Positions 1 to 9,597 of a DNA stretch of 50,461 bases are shown piece by piece. The notes under the pieces were generated by a model that was given only the letters and a program-made list of their open reading frames with translations, was not told the DNA's origin and did no database searches. The position numbers and the translations under genes are program-made. The stretch comes from an uncultured bacterium (GTDB lineage Bacteria > Patescibacteriota > Patescibacteriia > Patescibacteriales > SZUA-104): contig CAJVWV010000006.1 in assembly GCA_913009695.1 (NCBI GenBank), forward strand, positions 1 through 50,461, given 5' to 3'. Positions within the stretch are counted from its first letter, which is position 1; every line of letters begins with the position of its first letter.

Positions 1-102
1 TGGCTGAAGTTTAGTATTGTGTTTTGTTTTTTTTTTCAAGCAGAAGACGGCATACGAGATATATCAGTGTGACTGGAGTTCAGACGTGTGGTCTTCCGAT
101 CT
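1..102. other. Illumina adapter read-through (artefact)
   Basis: Positions 37-60 are the P7 flow-cell sequence, 61-68 an 8-base index (ATATCAGT), and 69-102 the TruSeq read-2 adapter with one mismatch. Positions 1-36 are low-complexity T-rich sequence beyond the adapter. The biological sequence starts at 103. Confidence 0.97.
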
Positions 103-1286
103 TTGTCATTTGCCGTCAGAACCTCTGGCAAATCTAGCTCCTCAACATGATCATTTTCAACAGACACATCACCATAACCATGAATACTATTAATAAAATT
201 GGCTGTGCGGTAATTTATTGCGTTAAATTCATAGTTAATTTTAATCTTACCATTTTTTCTTATAAATTTTCGCTTGAATGAAAGAGTCAATATCTCTTTA
301 TTAGCAACGACAATATTACCATACTTTTGTTTCAGCATTTTATAGCATTGATAATAATTCATCTGTACAGATAAACGGTGATTATTACCAAATGAAAAAT
401 CATCTAACGCATTATCATGCTTCTTCATTGTCAATGTTTCTGTATCAAAAATAATCCTTCTTACTCTGCCACCATTTTGCACTAGATCTTCCGAAATAAT
501 AAAAGGAGAACACGTTCCGTATGACATATTTTTGGGCAAGTCCTTTGCCATAAAGAGATAGCCGTCACCTGATACATCGACTTTTTCTTTCAATTGTCTC
601 TTATCAAGAAAACAACCTGTTTCAGGAACAACAACAGCAAAAAGAACTTGATCACTTGAACTTTCTACATAGAGGGCTTTAATAATATTAAGTGGATTCC
701 AACCATCCAGTATTATCCCTTTTTCGTAACACGTATTTGTCCCATAAGGATATGATACAACCCGAAATTCTTTATTGTTCGCATGAAGCTTGAAATCAAA
801 TCCACAACCATGTTTTGTTGTGTCTTCAATTTGATAATTTTTAAATGCGTCAATTTTGGTGTAATTTTCCTTAAAATAATGTTCCGCCGCTTGTCCTGTT
901 ATCAGCCGTTTTGCAAAACTGCTTTCTTTATCTTCTTTTTTGGCAACTTGCTCCATTAAAACATCCAACTCGTGATTTTCATAAATTATTTCTTTCAATA
1001 AATTTGAAAAGTTTCTTATGTCTAAATCTTTGAAAGAATTATAAATATCTTTACAATACTGCCTTATCTCTCTTTTATGCCAGCCCTGTCTTTTGTTTGG
1101 AAAAACAGGATCAAATTCATCTCTGTAATTTTTAACGGAAGCCGGCTTAACTTCCAACGCAAACCCGATAACATTAAATGCTTCTGTAAAATTATCAAAA
1201 CCGAGATACTTTAAACCTCTTTCATCAAATTTTGATAAAAATAATCCAGCCAATATTGATTTTTCTCTAAGTGATAATTTTTGCAT
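103..1286 (-). CDS. Putative type II restriction endonuclease, 3' end missing
   Basis: About 394 real residues are present; the C-terminus is lost because the contig runs into adapter at 102. The N-terminal half (residues about 20-75) contains the run YRDEFDPVFPNKRQGW, which I associate with N-terminal regions of restriction-type proteins. Residues about 130-180 (GQAAEHYF, then HGCGFDFKL and EFRVV) resemble the GxxAE...GxDf...v core of PD-(D/E)XK or DUF3883-like nuclease folds, although the usual E-x-K is not obvious. It starts 11 bases downstream of a truncated cytosine methyltransferase and a controller-like HTH gene on the same strand, the order of a C-M-R cassette. The nuclease assignment is inferred mainly from this context; a DNA-binding accessory protein is possible. 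Confidence 0.5.
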
Positions 1287-1297
1287 ATTTTTTATTA

Positions 1298-1474
1298 TTA
1301 AATCTCCATGTTTTTTTCGTCTTCGCCAAAAAATTCTCTGTATGTCTTTTCGGCGTTTTTATCTATTTCTGAAAATCCGACGCATTGCATACCTAAATTT
1401 TCAAGCCCGATTCTTCCGCCTCCTATTCCCGCGCAAAAATCAATAAATTTTATATTGTCCGTTGTTTTTTCCAT
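1298..1474 (-). pseudogene. N-terminal stub of a C5-cytosine DNA methyltransferase
   Basis: A 58-residue open frame reads MEKTTDNIKFIDFCAGIGG and continues with RIGLENLG, VGFSEIDKNAEKTY and FFGEDEKN before a TAA. This covers the SAM-binding motif I (D-x-F-A-G-x-G-G) and motif II (S-E-I-D) of Dcm-type enzymes. The catalytic PCQ motif, the ENV motif and the target-recognition domain are absent; family members usually have 300-400 residues. It lies 4 bases after the controller-like gene and 11 bases before the putative nuclease. The gene looks deleted after motif II; an assembly collapse is the main alternative. Confidence 0.8.
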
Positions 1475-1478
1475 ATTC

Positions 1479-1682
1479 TTATTTTATCAAATCATCAACG
1501 CCAATGTTCAACGCCTTGGCGATTTTTGTTAATGTTTCAATGGTTGGATTTTTATTGATTCCGTTTTCCACTTTAATAATCGTATTCAAAGACAAATCAG
1601 CCGAACGAGCGACTTTTTCAAGAGAATAACCCCTTTTTGACCTGTATTTTTTTAAGTTTTCCGAAATTTTGTTGTTTGACAT
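1479..1682 (-). CDS. XRE-family HTH regulator, R-M controller-like
   Basis: The 67-residue protein is a single Cro/C1-type helix-turn-helix domain. The run GYSLEKVARSADLSLNTI forms the first two helices and the recognition helix, followed by the typical VENGINKNPTIETLTKIAKALN segment in shorter pieces. Size and position ahead of a methyltransferase stub and a putative nuclease fit a C (controller) protein that times R-M expression. No Shine-Dalgarno is visible. The upstream DNA (1683-1740) is very A+T rich with a TATAATATAA stretch on this strand that could serve as a -10 region, and short inverted AT motifs that might be operators. A toxin-antitoxin or phage repressor role cannot be excluded. 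Confidence 0.8.
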   Translation of the reverse strand: MSNNKISENLKKYRSKRGYSLEKVARSADLSLNTIIKVENGINKNPTIETLTKIAKALNIGVDDLIK

Positions 1683-1742
1683 TGTTTTAAAATTGATATA
1701 ACATTATAATATATAGAATATAGTTTATACTTTACCTATTTT

Positions 1743-2141
1743 CTATTATAATAATAGCAGATAATTAAAAAATAGCCAAATCCGAAAAAATCGGGCGAAG
1801 CCCGAAAAGAAAAAATCTCTCCGCCGAAGGCGAAGAAAAAAAAGGGGGGGGTTAAAAAATTGCGCCGCAGGCGTAAAAAAAGAAATCGTCAGCGTTAGCG
1901 TTTCCGCAATTCCGCCAAAAGCGGAATTAAGCTAAAACAGAAAAATTTTCTCTCCTATTAAAAGAAAAAGGGGGCAAAAATCAAAAAATGAAAAGAAAAT
2001 TTTTCTGTTTTGGCTACCGCCGAGCTTGCGAGGCGGGCGGAAATGCAAATCGTAAATTATTGGTCGGTATCACCGCGCGCGCGGAGCGCGCGTCAGTCGT
2101 CGGGATTATTAGCAAAATGAGTTCTAATTTCGTCCAAAACA
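1743..2141. repeat. Non-coding stretch packed with mini-palindromes
   Basis: No convincing gene is present. Short hairpins follow one another: TCGGGCGAAGCCCGA (about 1788-1802), CGCCGAAGGCG, TTGCGCCGCAGGCGTAA, TTCCGCCAAAAGCGGAA and CGCGCGCGGAGCGCGCG. Purine tracts and a G run lie between them. A longer inverted repeat, left arm 1931-1951 and right arm 1994-2014 with one mismatch over 21 bases, brackets a purine-rich 42-base loop. The 28.3-28.8 kb gap has similar texture. Confidence 0.75.
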
Positions 2142-2386
2142 CACCGCATTTTTACAATTTCAGCGTTTCGGAAAGTTTTGCGCGCCTGCGGCGCGGTCGC
2201 TCCGCCTGCGGGCGGAGAAAAAGGGGCTGATTTTGCAACGATTTGCCACGCTTCGCGTGGCAAAAAAGAAATGTTTTGGTTTTGGATTTGGAAGTTCGTT
2301 TGAGCGAAGCTCAAAATTTCGCTGAAAGCGAAATAACCAATCTTTTTTCTTTCCGCTGAAAGCGGAAATTGTAAAGCGATAATTTT
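2142..2386. repeat. Left inverted repeat of the recombinase cassette
   Basis: This 245-base segment is the inverted copy of 3747-3964. From CACCGCATTTTTACAATTTC to GGATTTGGAAGTTCG the copies agree almost base for base. They then diverge by hairpin insertions and rejoin at ACCAATCTTTTTT and AAAGCGATAATTTT. On the minus strand it encodes an alternative recombinase tail (FQIQNQNISF through EIVKMR) that continues with CVLDEIRTHFANNPDD and then stops. Confidence 0.9.
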
Positions 2387-2411
2387 TAATAATATTTTGA
2401 CTTCAATAAAT

Positions 2412-4130
2412 ATGGAAAATATAAAAGATCAAACCAAAAAATTTTTTATCTACGCTCGCAAGTCAACGGATAACGAGGATAGACAAGTGCGGAGTATCGG
2501 CGACCAGTTGTCGGAATTGCGGGAATTGGCGGGCAAAGAAAACATTGAGATTGTTGATGTGTTGGTGGAAAAACAAACCGCCAAAATTCCGGGCAGACCT
2601 GTTTTCTCCGAAATGTTAAAAAGGATTGAACAAGGCGAAGCAATGGGAATTTTAGCATGGCACCCCGACAGATTGGCAAGAAATAGCGTTGACGGCGGAC
2701 AAATCATTTATCTCGTTGATACTGGGGTTATTCAAGAAATGAAATTCCCGACTTTTTGGTTTGATCCTACGCCTCAAGGCAAATTTATGTTATCAATAGC
2801 TTTCGGTCAGTCAAAATATTATATTGATAATCTTTCGGAGAATATTAAGCGAGGACATCGTCAAAAGTTGAAAAATGGAATTTGGCCTCAAATGGCTCCG
2901 ATTGGTTACCTAAACAACAAAGAAACGAAACAAATCTATGTTGATAAGGAAAGGGCAAAATATATCAAAAAAGCCTTTGAGGCCTACGCCACAGGAAACC
3001 ACACTTTGAAAAATCTCCGAAAGATTATCAACGGGCTTGGTTTGCAGAGTAGGTCAAACAGATTGCTTTCCGTTTCAAATTATCAATACTTTTTGCGAAA
3101 TCCCATTTATTGCGGAGTAATCAGATACAACGGCGAACTATACAACGGAAAGCATAAACCGATTATTTCAAAGAAACTTTTTGATGAGGTTCAAGAAGTA
3201 ATGACGAGAAAATCAAAACCGCAGAAAGTAGAGACGATGAAATTTTTTCTTTATCGTGGATTTTTTCATTGCGGTGAGTGCGGATTTACAATTACCGCCG
3301 ACAAGAAAGTGAAGCCGAGTGGTAAAGAATATATTTATTACTATTGCACAAAGAAAAATCCGCACCACGATTGCAAGCAAAATGTATTTACAAGAGAAGA
3401 AAAAATTTCATCTCAAATTAACGAAGAAATCCAAAAAATTTCTTTGCCCGACGATTGGTCTGATTGGATGATTAAGGAATTGGAAACAGAAAGAATCCAA
3501 TCAAATCAATCGTCGGACTTTTTCGCTCAAAAGAATAAAAAGGAACTTTCAAAAATTGACGAGAAGTTGGAAAAACTAATGACAGCGTATTTAGAAAGTG
3601 TTTTGAGTTTAACGGAATATCAGCAAGCAAAAAATATTCTCGTCAATCAAAAACAAATTTTGAAAGACAAAATATCTTCTTTTGAGCGTAAAAGTAATAA
3701 TCGGTTCGAACTCGCCATAAATTTCGTAAAAGCCAGCAAACAAGCCAAAATTATCGCTTTGCAAGAAAATCCCGAAGGGATTCGGGATTTTCTAAAAAAG
3801 ATTGGTTCGAACTTCCAAATCCAAAACCAAAACATTTCTTTTTCGCCACGCGGAGCGTGGCAAATCGTTGTAAATTCAGCCCTTTTTTCTCCGCCCGCAG
3901 GCGGAGCGACCGCGCCGCAGGCGCGCAAAACTTTCCGAAACGCTGAAATTGTAAAAATGCGGTGGGAGAAGGATTCGAACCCTCGGTACCCTTTCGAGCA
4001 CAGCGGTTTTCGAAACCGCCCCATTCGACCACTCTGGCATCCCACCAATTATCATAATAATTTTATTAAACCCCTACCCCAAACTTATTTCGGAGGTTCC
4101 GGCACACCTCCATTATTAATCACCCAATAA
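2412..4130 (+). CDS. Large serine recombinase / integrase
   Basis: About 572 residues from the ATG; an in-frame TTG lies 15 bases upstream. The N-terminal resolvase domain begins with FFIYARKSTDNEDRQ, whose serine in ARKST is the expected nucleophile, and includes the conserved Arg in HPDRLARN. The central Recombinase domain spans roughly residues 160-270. A zinc-ribbon follows (CGECG about residue 290, later YYYCTKKNPHHDC), then a coiled-coil-rich region (about 360-450), as in large serine integrases. The tail from FLKKIGSNFQ onward is encoded by the right inverted repeat, runs antisense through tRNA-Ser and ends overlapping the 3' end of the pseudouridine synthase gene. NPEGIRD is encoded by a mini-palindrome. 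It is probably the integrase of a mobile segment targeted at the tRNA. Confidence 0.92.
   Translation: MENIKDQTKKFFIYARKSTDNEDRQVRSIGDQLSELRELAGKENIEIVDVLVEKQTAKIPGRPVFSEMLKRIEQGEAMGILAWHPDRLARNSVDGGQIIYLVDTGVIQEMKFPTFWFDPTPQGKFMLSIAFGQSKYYIDNLSENIKRGHRQKLKNGIWPQMAPIGYLNNKETKQIYVDKERAKYIKKAFEAYATGNHTLKNLRKIINGLGLQSRSNRLLSVSNYQYFLRNPIYCGVIRYNGELYNGKHKPIISKKLFDEVQEVMTRKSKPQKVETMKFFLYRGFFHCGECGFTITADKKVKPSGKEYIYYYCTKKNPHHDCKQNVFTREEKISSQINEEIQKISLPDDWSDWMIKELETERIQSNQSSDFFAQKNKKELSKIDEKLEKLMTAYLESVLSLTEYQQAKNILVNQKQILKDKISSFERKSNNRFELAINFVKASKQAKIIALQENPEGIRDFLKKIGSNFQIQNQNISFSPRGAWQIVVNSALFSPPAGGATAPQARKTFRNAEIVKMRWEKDSNPRYPFEHSGFRNRPIRPLWHPTNYHNNFIKPLPQTYFGGSGTPPLLITQ
3747..3964. repeat. Right inverted repeat of the recombinase cassette
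   Basis: Inverted partner of 2142-2386, lying inside the 3' part of the recombinase gene and touching the last bases of tRNA-Ser. It carries a different mini-palindrome (ATCCCGAAGGGATTCGGGAT, about 3769-3788) where the left copy has TTTCCGCTGAAAGCGGAAA. It lacks the extra two-hairpin insertion of the left copy. Confidence 0.9.
3960..4046 (-). tRNA. tRNA-Ser (anticodon CGA)
   Basis: The 7-base acceptor stem GGTGGGA pairs with TCCCACC. The anticodon arm is GCGGT-TTCGAAA-ACCGC with anticodon CGA, a long variable arm follows, and the T arm contains GGTTCGAATCC. The base after the acceptor is G, the usual serine discriminator. CCA is not encoded. The whole gene is antisense to the recombinase tail. 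Confidence 0.96.
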
Positions 4131-7283: not shown

Positions 7284-8249
7284 TTATGTAATTAACATAT
7301 AAAGCCCCGTACTGACCAGCATTACCCCAATAATCTTCTGCAACAAAACCCCGCCTCCAAGTTCTTCCGCGATAATCCTCGGATGTTTTTTTGATAAAAA
7401 CAAAACAAGCAGGAATAAAAATACATATTGCGCGCCCTGAAGCGAATTAATTAAAGCTACGTTTCCTAAACTTATAGCCCAATTTAACATAATAAAAGCC
7501 AGCGCGGCTAATAATCTTATGCTTAAAAAGAAAAATAAATTTTTCGGAACTTTTCCTTCTTTCCTATGCTCTACTATATGTTTCCGCCAGTCCGGAACAA
7601 ATAAAATTAATAATACTCCTATAAACGTGCCAAGGCGCGACCAAACAAAAGCGCCGATGAACGGCTGATGGCCGTAAATATATTTGATTAAAACATAATA
7701 AGCGGCAAAAAATATAGCTGACACGACCGAATTAATAATAAGCCTGCGTGACGGCCTGTAGTGCGCGTGTATTCCGCCAAGAACATCGCCGAAAATATTT
7801 CTTGCACTCTTCCATACTTCTTTTATAGCATAAAATTTAGTCCTTCTCACGGAAACCAAAATTCCGCCGTAAATCAAAATTAAAAAAGCCAACAACTGCC
7901 TTTCTCCCAAGCTCTGGCCCAAAAAAATAAAAGATAATATAAAACTAAATATCGGCGTTAGCGCCCCAACAATCGGCACGACCCTTGTCGCCTCGCTTTG
8001 ATGCAGTGCCTTATACCAAAAAATCAAAGTTACCAAAAACAATAAGCCGGCCAATAAATCAATGGATAGCTCGCGCAAAGTAGGAATCCATGGAGCAAAT
8101 ATTAATAAAGTAAAATTAAAAATACTCCAGATGCCAACGTAAAAAGCGTAAGTAATAGATGAGTGAATTTTTTTGGAAAGCAAAAATTTATCAGCGACGT
8201 AAACCCCGGCATTTATAAAATAAGCGCTAACTGCTACAAATAACCACAT
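7284..8249 (-). CDS. EamA/DMT-superfamily transporter-like membrane protein
   Basis: About 321 residues from the chosen ATG; the longer reading begins with a TTG that lies inside a CAATTTT heptamer array, so I take the internal Met preceding WLFVAVSAYF. About ten membrane helices form two EamA repeats; FLGQSLGERQLLAFLILIYG ends the first and a similar segment ends the second. A long hydrophilic stretch (about 140-175, HAHYRPSRR) joins the halves. The stop codon is one base from the start of the O-antigen ligase-like gene. The substrate is unknown. Confidence 0.78.
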   Translation of the reverse strand: MWLFVAVSAYFINAGVYVADKFLLSKKIHSSITYAFYVGIWSIFNFTLLIFAPWIPTLRELSIDLLAGLLFLVTLIFWYKALHQSEATRVVPIVGALTPIFSFILSFIFLGQSLGERQLLAFLILIYGGILVSVRRTKFYAIKEVWKSARNIFGDVLGGIHAHYRPSRRLIINSVVSAIFFAAYYVLIKYIYGHQPFIGAFVWSRLGTFIGVLLILFVPDWRKHIVEHRKEGKVPKNLFFFLSIRLLAALAFIMLNWAISLGNVALINSLQGAQYVFLFLLVLFLSKKHPRIIAEELGGGVLLQKIIGVMLVSTGLYMLIT

Positions 8250-8254
8250 GAAAT

Positions 8255-8284
8255 CAATTTTCAATTTTCAATTTTCAATTTTCA
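8255..8284. repeat. Heptamer array (CAATTTT unit)
   Basis: Four consecutive 7-base units upstream of the transporter start codon; the same unit recurs in the 23S rRNA insertion and at 45.5 kb. Confidence 0.93.
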
Positions 8285-8337
8285 AACAATTACTAATTGC
8301 CAAATTGATTAATTAAAAATTGTTTTGAATTTTAAAA

Positions 8338-9597
8338 TTAATTTTTGATAATTAACTCATTGTTCTTACAAATTTCCGCGTAAACTTTTGCGCTTGGTCG
8401 TATTTTTCGTTCCTGTGTTTTGTAATCTATTTCTACTAATCCAAACCTCGGCCAAAATCCCTTGTCCCATTCATGATTATCAAGAAACGACCAATATAAA
8501 TATCCTCTTATATCAACCCCGTCTTTAATTGCCATAAAAACATTTTTTAATGTTTCCTTTATGAACCACTCTCGATTTTTATCGTCTTTGTCCGCTAATC
8601 CATTCTCGGTAATATAAATAGGTAAATTATATTTTTTTAAACCAACCAAAACCGAATAAATAGATTTTGGATAAATTTCCCAGCCTAAATCATTTAGAAT
8701 TTTATTTTCATTTTTATTAAAACCGTAATTTATTCTATTGTGAAAATAATGATTTAATCCAATAAAATCCAGGTGCTTTTCAATTTTTCCTAAAAATCTA
8801 AAATTCCACCAATTATCGGCAAATTTTTTAAACAATCTATTGATGGGTTTTTTCTTATAATCTTCAAAATGAATATTGTTTTTCGCGATACCAATATTAT
8901 AGTTTTGATTAATTGACTTTAGCGCCAGATAAGTTTCAATATGCGCTTTTATTAAATTTTTTCCTACATTTAAATATTTAATAATACTTTTTTTATTCGG
9001 TGACCAACTTCCTTGTAAGTATGACTTAGTGGAATATATTTCCGGCTCATTAAATATTATCCAAAATTTTACATCTTTTAATTCGCTAGATATTTTCTTG
9101 GCGTATTGAATAAAATTATCTATTGTTTTTTTATTTTCCCAGCCGCCATTATCTCTTACCCACAAAGGTAAAGTCCAGTGCCAAAGAGTAACAAAGGGCT
9201 CTATCCCTCTTTCTTTAAGTGAGCTTATAACGTTTCTATAATGTTCAATTTCTTTTTCATTAAATTTTCCTTCTTCTGGTTCAATCCTTGACCATTCAAT
9301 TGATAACCTATGCGCGTTATGATTTAAAGATTTAGCAATATCAAAATCTTCCTTATATCTATTATAGTGATCGCAGGCAATGCCTGAAATATAATTTTGT
9401 GGCTCAAACATTTCTGGAAATTTTTCTTTTTGCCAGTTTTGCCATTTATTATTAGCTTCCCCCGCCAATCTCTCCGCATTCTTCTTTTCCCATTCCGACC
9501 AATCATTAATATTTCCGCCCTCAACTTGATGGGCGGAAGTGCTTGCTCCCCAATAAAAATTTTGAGGAAAATTTAATGTTTTTTCTTTATTATTCAT
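8338..9597 (-). CDS. Glycoside hydrolase family 1 (beta-glucosidase-like)
   Basis: 419 residues, close to the 420-480 usual for GH1. The N-terminal FPQNFYWGASTSAHQVEG is the GH1 N-terminal signature. FNEPEIY (about residue 180) carries the acid/base Glu of the N-E-P motif, and PIYITENGLAD (about 325) carries the nucleophile of I-T-E-N-G. The C-terminal GYLYWSFLDNHEW is also characteristic. GH1 enzymes are (beta/alpha)8 barrels that hydrolyse beta-linked glucosides, galactosides or 6-phospho forms; the exact substrate is not evident. There is no signal peptide, so a cytoplasmic enzyme is expected. It is set off from its neighbours by 88 bases on the 3' side and by a plus-strand promoter region on the 5' side. 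Confidence 0.95.
   Translation of the reverse strand: MNNKEKTLNFPQNFYWGASTSAHQVEGGNINDWSEWEKKNAERLAGEANNKWQNWQKEKFPEMFEPQNYISGIACDHYNRYKEDFDIAKSLNHNAHRLSIEWSRIEPEEGKFNEKEIEHYRNVISSLKERGIEPFVTLWHWTLPLWVRDNGGWENKKTIDNFIQYAKKISSELKDVKFWIIFNEPEIYSTKSYLQGSWSPNKKSIIKYLNVGKNLIKAHIETYLALKSINQNYNIGIAKNNIHFEDYKKKPINRLFKKFADNWWNFRFLGKIEKHLDFIGLNHYFHNRINYGFNKNENKILNDLGWEIYPKSIYSVLVGLKKYNLPIYITENGLADKDDKNREWFIKETLKNVFMAIKDGVDIRGYLYWSFLDNHEWDKGFWPRFGLVEIDYKTQERKIRPSAKVYAEICKNNELIIKN

Follow-up and report, generated by a model that had tools for sequence, protein, structure and literature searches.

Organization of the recombinase locus

The window analyzed here is a 50,461 nt stretch of contig CAJVWV010000006.1 (assembly GCA_913009695.1) from an uncultured member of the Patescibacteria. 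An open reading frame at 2397–4130 on the forward strand, with a likely ATG start at 2412, encodes a recombinase in which Resolvase (PF00239), Recombinase (PF07508) and zinc ribbon (PF13408) domains were each found above cut-off, identifying it as a large serine recombinase. The nearest solved structures were those of the A118 integrase and SPbeta YokA. A repeat search of the window revealed two inverted arms of 157 nt (2142–2298 and 3808–3964), spaced 1509 nt apart, which were 97% complementary and unlike at ~5 of 157 positions; such a repeat is far beyond chance. When compared at the protein level the tail homology of the left copy reached ~2096–2386 (73% over 100 aa, with small palindromic insertions), the part outside the 157-nt arm, to ~2386, being weaker and diverged. 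This extension agrees with the 220–245 bases given in an initial annotation of the sequence, which had placed the recombinase between inverted copies, and that placement was confirmed. The left copy does, as had been claimed, encode this tail on the reverse strand with a different ending (CVLDEIRTHFANNPDD): the reverse-strand ORF at 2093–2314 corresponds to this tail and ends in ...KMRCVLDEIRTHFANNPDD, and the recombinase ORF reads on as ...KMRWEKDSNPRY... The view of both copies as inverted recombination sites, with the C-terminus of the gene inside the site, also held. An assembly duplication, raised in the same annotation as a possible source of the repeats, was ruled out by the unlike positions in the arms and by the occurrence of the same layout in many genomes, including single-contig ones.

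A tRNA-Ser (CGA) gene, absent from the initial annotation, was detected by tRNA search at 3959–4046 on the reverse strand, at the end of the right arm. From this position it follows that the right copy stops where the tRNA gene has its 3′ end and that antisense tRNA encodes the residues (WEKDSNPRY...) beyond the shared KMR; the coding region of the recombinase (2412–4130) past 3962 consists of antisense tRNA and flanking DNA. Short GC-rich palindromes (e.g., CGCCTGCGGCGCG, TTTCGCTGAAAGCGAAA) were numerous at 1780–2060 and 2299–2370, around and inside the arms.

The two copies as attachment sites

A set of 211 unique related Patescibacteria recombinase loci, 131 with both flanks, was gathered from a genome-collection scan and from phylum, relatives and class searches. 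We designate the arm common to both copies P and the conserved sequence beyond the core on the left P′. Among the approximately 35 Ser-type loci the copies agree up to four bases, GCGG, and the arms stop exactly there, being followed by antisense tRNA-Ser on the right and by conserved P′ (TGTGTATTGGACGAAGTTCGAATG..., with C-V-L-D-E-I-R-T-like tails) on the left. As P, the GCGG core and P′ are all present in it, the left copy is, on this comparison, a complete inverted attP (P′-GCGG-P) directly upstream of the recombinase, and the right copy is on the same grounds a hybrid end, P-GCGG-tRNA. In the window, ORF translation and locus comparison place the start of the inner P′ arm, with its native-type tail, at 2093–2143 on the reverse strand, followed by the inner core at 2144–2147 (CCGC on the forward strand, GCGG on the reverse) and the inner P-arm copy at 2148–2298 on the reverse strand, which together with P′ makes up the second attP. 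The right P-arm copy (3808–3958, forward strand) lies within the recombinase gene, and the right core GCGG (3959–3962) forms the junction of element and tRNA gene. Both the arms (median 120 bp) and the P′ repeats (median 145 bp) exceed the ~50 bp required for a serine-integrase site.

Among the relatives the inner arm ends 19–200 nt (median 63) before the ATG of the recombinase, a position that makes this arm or its immediate vicinity the most likely place for the recombinase promoter. The motifs seen there, a -10-like GATAAT at 2378–2383 on the forward strand of the window (a weak consensus match that is the reverse complement of KIIAL codons) and GCGATAATTT upstream of the recombinase gene in several relatives, point only weakly to a particular promoter.

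tRNA targets and element ends among related loci

Of the 131 fully flanked loci, 117 carried an inverted repeat 60 bp or more in length; the remaining 14 complete loci do without a long inverted repeat, which is therefore dispensable. A tRNA gene antisense to the recombinase was found at its 3′ end in 109 of these 131 loci, and the right arm terminated 2–8 nt within the tRNA 3′ end in 105 of 129. The targets span 18 tRNA types, with Ser the commonest (55), and insertion thus occurs at tRNA 3′ ends with a defined core. The current tail of the recombinase would stem from integration into tRNA-Ser and not from inversion, as antisense tRNA accounts for its extra residues and the 109 complete loci likewise enter some tRNA 3′ end. 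Of 380 genomes sampled from the phylum, 136 contained relatives of the recombinase. Searches of plasmids, phages and IMG/VR returned only distant relatives (<60% identity, best matches ~20%–30%) and no episomal or viral form.

Where sufficient sequence was available, most loci had an inverted P′ copy reaching the core 1–5 kb further left, and 55 complete elements of 2.5–6.7 kb (median 3.8 kb) were delimited. In these 55 related elements the core-P′ on the far left is inverted relative to the inner P′ (median 145 bp, 98.6% identity); the far end of the window's own element lies outside the assembly. The resulting layout is chromosome-core-P′-cargo-P′-core-P-recombinase-P-core-tRNA. In several loci the flank just past the far-left core resembled a terminator oriented like the tRNA gene. 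Strict terminator-like hairpins were present there in 9 of 55 elements as compared with 10 of 1100 random windows; the opposite strand, used as a control, gave 5 of 55. This excess, a modest signal, fits an insertion which parts the tRNA from its terminator.

Concerted evolution of the arms

In a set of 79 arm pairs with one end at a tRNA, 149 of the 158 arms had their own partner as best match. Median arm identity was 99.25% within an element and 75.8% between elements, so that the arms evolve in concert. Over 155 repeats the median identity was 99.05%, and 63 were exactly 100% identical. Since distantly related recombinases share the layout, the arm duplication is either old or regenerated. 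Recombinase coding lies in the right copy only, yet both copies stay identical, and we infer that gene conversion or recombination between the arms maintains this identity.

Cargo

Elements whose recombinases were 82%–93% identical at the DNA level mostly had no detectable similarity in their cargo and otherwise shared just ~30–120 bp, which indicates, at the level of sequence comparison, that cargo is swapped freely between elements. The sampled cargo included a C5 methyltransferase, a sodium:solute symporter, an aminotransferase, a carbamoyltransferase, a class I tRNA synthetase domain, a P-type ATPase and regulators, and no transfer, replication or phage genes were recognised in this sample. 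A PADLOC analysis gave no general defence role for the cargo, which is mixed.

The cargo in the window lies on the reverse strand. A small helix-turn-helix regulator (PF01381) is encoded at 1479–1682 and a 58-aa fragment of a C5-cytosine methyltransferase at 1298–1474, its residues 8–52 aligning with positions 1–44 of the 324-position PF00145 profile. Next to it and downstream is a longer ORF (36–1286) with no recognised domain by domain search, which is truncated by the contig end; judged by position, it probably encodes a nuclease paired with the methyltransferase fragment, and the set has the appearance of an incomplete or rearranged restriction-modification system. An Illumina P7/TruSeq adapter occupies 41–102, at the contig end, and the ORF finishes in adapter-derived residues at its C-terminus.

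Interpretation and alternative explanations

Positions 1–3962 of the window probably represent the tRNA-proximal end of a small Patescibacteria integrative element residing in tRNA-Ser, with the inner inverted attP serving as promoter region and as a second attachment site maintained by homology. As read from comparison of the loci, which established the layout, the core, the tRNA target, the element ends, the concerted identity of the arms and the swapping of cargo, the large serine recombinase would insert the element into the tRNA-Ser 3′ end at the GCGG core. The 3′ end of its own gene would constitute the P arm of attP, such that integration would exchange the native, P′-encoded tail (CVLDEIRTHF...) for residues of the antisense tRNA. 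The upstream inverted copy would be a second complete attP (P′-core-P) that doubles as the 5′ portion of the recombinase gene with its likely promoter. Among the possible roles of this inner attP our first choice is that it acts mainly as promoter/operator and as a gene-conversion partner keeping the attachment site copies identical; inversion between the copies would be possible but rare. An operator role alone does not account for how long and how nearly identical both halves are, features that the single-strand and amplification models considered below would explain.

The initial annotation, which is partly supported by these results, had proposed a self-switching cassette. In a full form of this model, a flip of the gene would alternate its C-terminus between the native and the antisense-tRNA tail, change its transcription relative to the tRNA and so act as an on/off switch for excision. 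Inverted sites do flank the segment, they have an identical core at which one crossover would both flip the gene and swap its tail, and the arms evolve in concert, although a core crossover alone does not homogenise arms. It was the recurrence of the flip that the comparison of both orientations in related genomes failed to support. The recombinase faces the tRNA in 109 loci, and the single-contig genomes (G005, G136, G107 and G167) had this state only. The sole fully flanked exception, L124, has a tRNA-Ala before the recombinase and is complex, with a tRNA 3′ fragment and another tRNA-Ala following the recombinase (1305–3101) and arms that are only 79% identical. Four other contigs also look flipped (L048, the same as L229, L130, L249 and L269); the flip suggested by L048 is downgraded, since each of the four stops within the recombinase or where the second arm begins, and near-identical arms defeat short-read assembly at such contig ends. 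The orientation in the window is more secure because its arms differ. Large serine recombinases carry out attP x attB recombination without a directionality factor and require one for attL x attR, and they normally refuse the attP x attP and attP x attL reactions such a switch would call for. With orientation almost fixed across relatives, recurrent switching is judged from these sequences to be unlikely, and the self-switching cassette as an account of the locus quite improbable.

Two further models give the duplicated site a more active role, and both proceed by analogy. In one, pairing of P with inverted P and of P′ with inverted P′ in single-stranded DNA would produce a double-stranded attP at the base of a stem, with the recombinase and cargo as loops. 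This would suit the duplication and inversion of both halves and their high identity well past a minimal site, as well as the phylum-wide conservation of competence genes (PMC10633639) and the natural transformation shown in Saccharibacteria, and the hairpin attP of CTXphi offers a precedent (PMC4439123). Against this, a single-stranded element could not express the recombinase, so a resident copy would have to supply the enzyme, and gene conversion alone would also explain the identity; we regard this model as improbable. In the other, the two inverted attP sites would flank the recombinase in an excised circle, and inversion during replication would lead to double rolling-circle copying. A recombinase does lie between two inverted, near-identical, site-holding repeats, and the circle so envisaged would share the topology of the yeast 2-micron plasmid (PMC3147054). 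This model would nevertheless require attP x attP recombination, no replication gene was recognised in the sampled cargo, no plasmid relative exceeded 60% identity and no circular form was seen, and the integrated copies, rather than existing as equal isomers, are strongly biased in orientation; it is accordingly the least credible of these explanations and very unlikely. A broader, tentative and rather doubtful proposal is that these widespread minimal gene-carrying elements make active use of the second attP, with its inversion and concerted evolution, in their transposition cycle. If true, for example through a double-stranded attP formed from transformed single-stranded DNA or through inversion-driven copying, this would be a new integration strategy for serine recombinases.

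Comparison with known systems

The elements share with serine-recombinase elements and phages of the A118, TP901-1 and SPbeta types the same domain plan and a core-specific insertion which yields two hybrid ends. They differ from these in targeting tRNA 3′ ends, in having the site inside the recombinase gene and in possessing a second inverted attP upstream; they are also tiny, and the sampled ones contained no recognised phage or transfer genes. In mycobacteriophage BPs the attP is reportedly carried by the repressor gene, giving integration-dependent immunity. There too attP is described as lying in a coding gene whose protein is altered at the C-terminus by integration (PMC4557955); in the Patescibacteria elements, unlike BPs, the recombinase itself carries attP and an inverted second attP is present. 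Archaeal integrases of the SSV1 type and of pTN3 also have attP inside the integrase gene and target tRNA genes, and that of pTN3 in addition inverts DNA lying between tRNA sites in opposite orientation (PMC5495485). These are however tyrosine recombinases whose gene is disrupted on integration rather than given a new tail, and no inner inverted attP is described there. The FLP/FRT system of the yeast 2-micron plasmid similarly has two inverted repeats holding the recombination site (PMC3147054), but on a replicating plasmid with a tyrosine recombinase, whereas the Patescibacteria elements are chromosomal and almost always in one orientation. As in CTXphi, inverted halves could form a double-stranded attachment site in single-stranded DNA (PMC4439123); CTXphi relies on the host XerCD recombinases and not a serine integrase, and the likeness is one of analogy only.

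Serine integrases, tRNA targeting, an attP in a gene altered by integration (BPs) and inverted recombination sites (2-micron) are thus known singly. No description of the combined architecture was found in the open-licence literature searched, and this large family of Patescibacteria elements is apparently undescribed. With their exchangeable cargo of DNA methyltransferases, transporters and enzymes the elements appear to be an important route by which these ultrasmall, poorly cultivated bacteria acquire genes. Known serine integrase models do not predict the inverted double attP, a design feature that is both conserved and testable, and recombinases reading the tRNA 3′ ends of many isotypes could serve as integration tools.

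Atypical ends

At three loci (L030, 3577; L054, 5487; L056, 5506) the right flank is a common motif (GACACTCGGGTTAAG-like) with no recognised tRNA, and an Rfam search of the non-tRNA right flanks (these three and L022) gave no match. In L022 (5523–5596) and L052 (1132) the tail runs into P′-like sequence and not into a tRNA; such ends could reflect a native attP junction, elements in tandem or a copy that has flipped.

A tRNA-Ser 3′-like motif (GCGGAAAGGGAGGGATTTACCCC...GGGGCATAAAC) was observed ~70–100 bp past the far-left core in L040 (1084) and L071 (7052). As this motif occurred in only 2 of 15 inspected far-left ends (L040 and contig C1 of the window's own genome), it was rejected as a generally carried attB. 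The end in C1 (L071, 7052–7160) belongs to a second, different element with a GCGG-P′ variant and neighbours a P-type ATPase-like gene at 7573–9450; no recombinase matching it was found in the 43 contigs of this assembly. In L008 (1495) and L012 (1822) the sequence flanking the far-left core is another element's P arm, placing two elements side by side at one tRNA; the recombinase of the neighbour may there regain a P′ tail.
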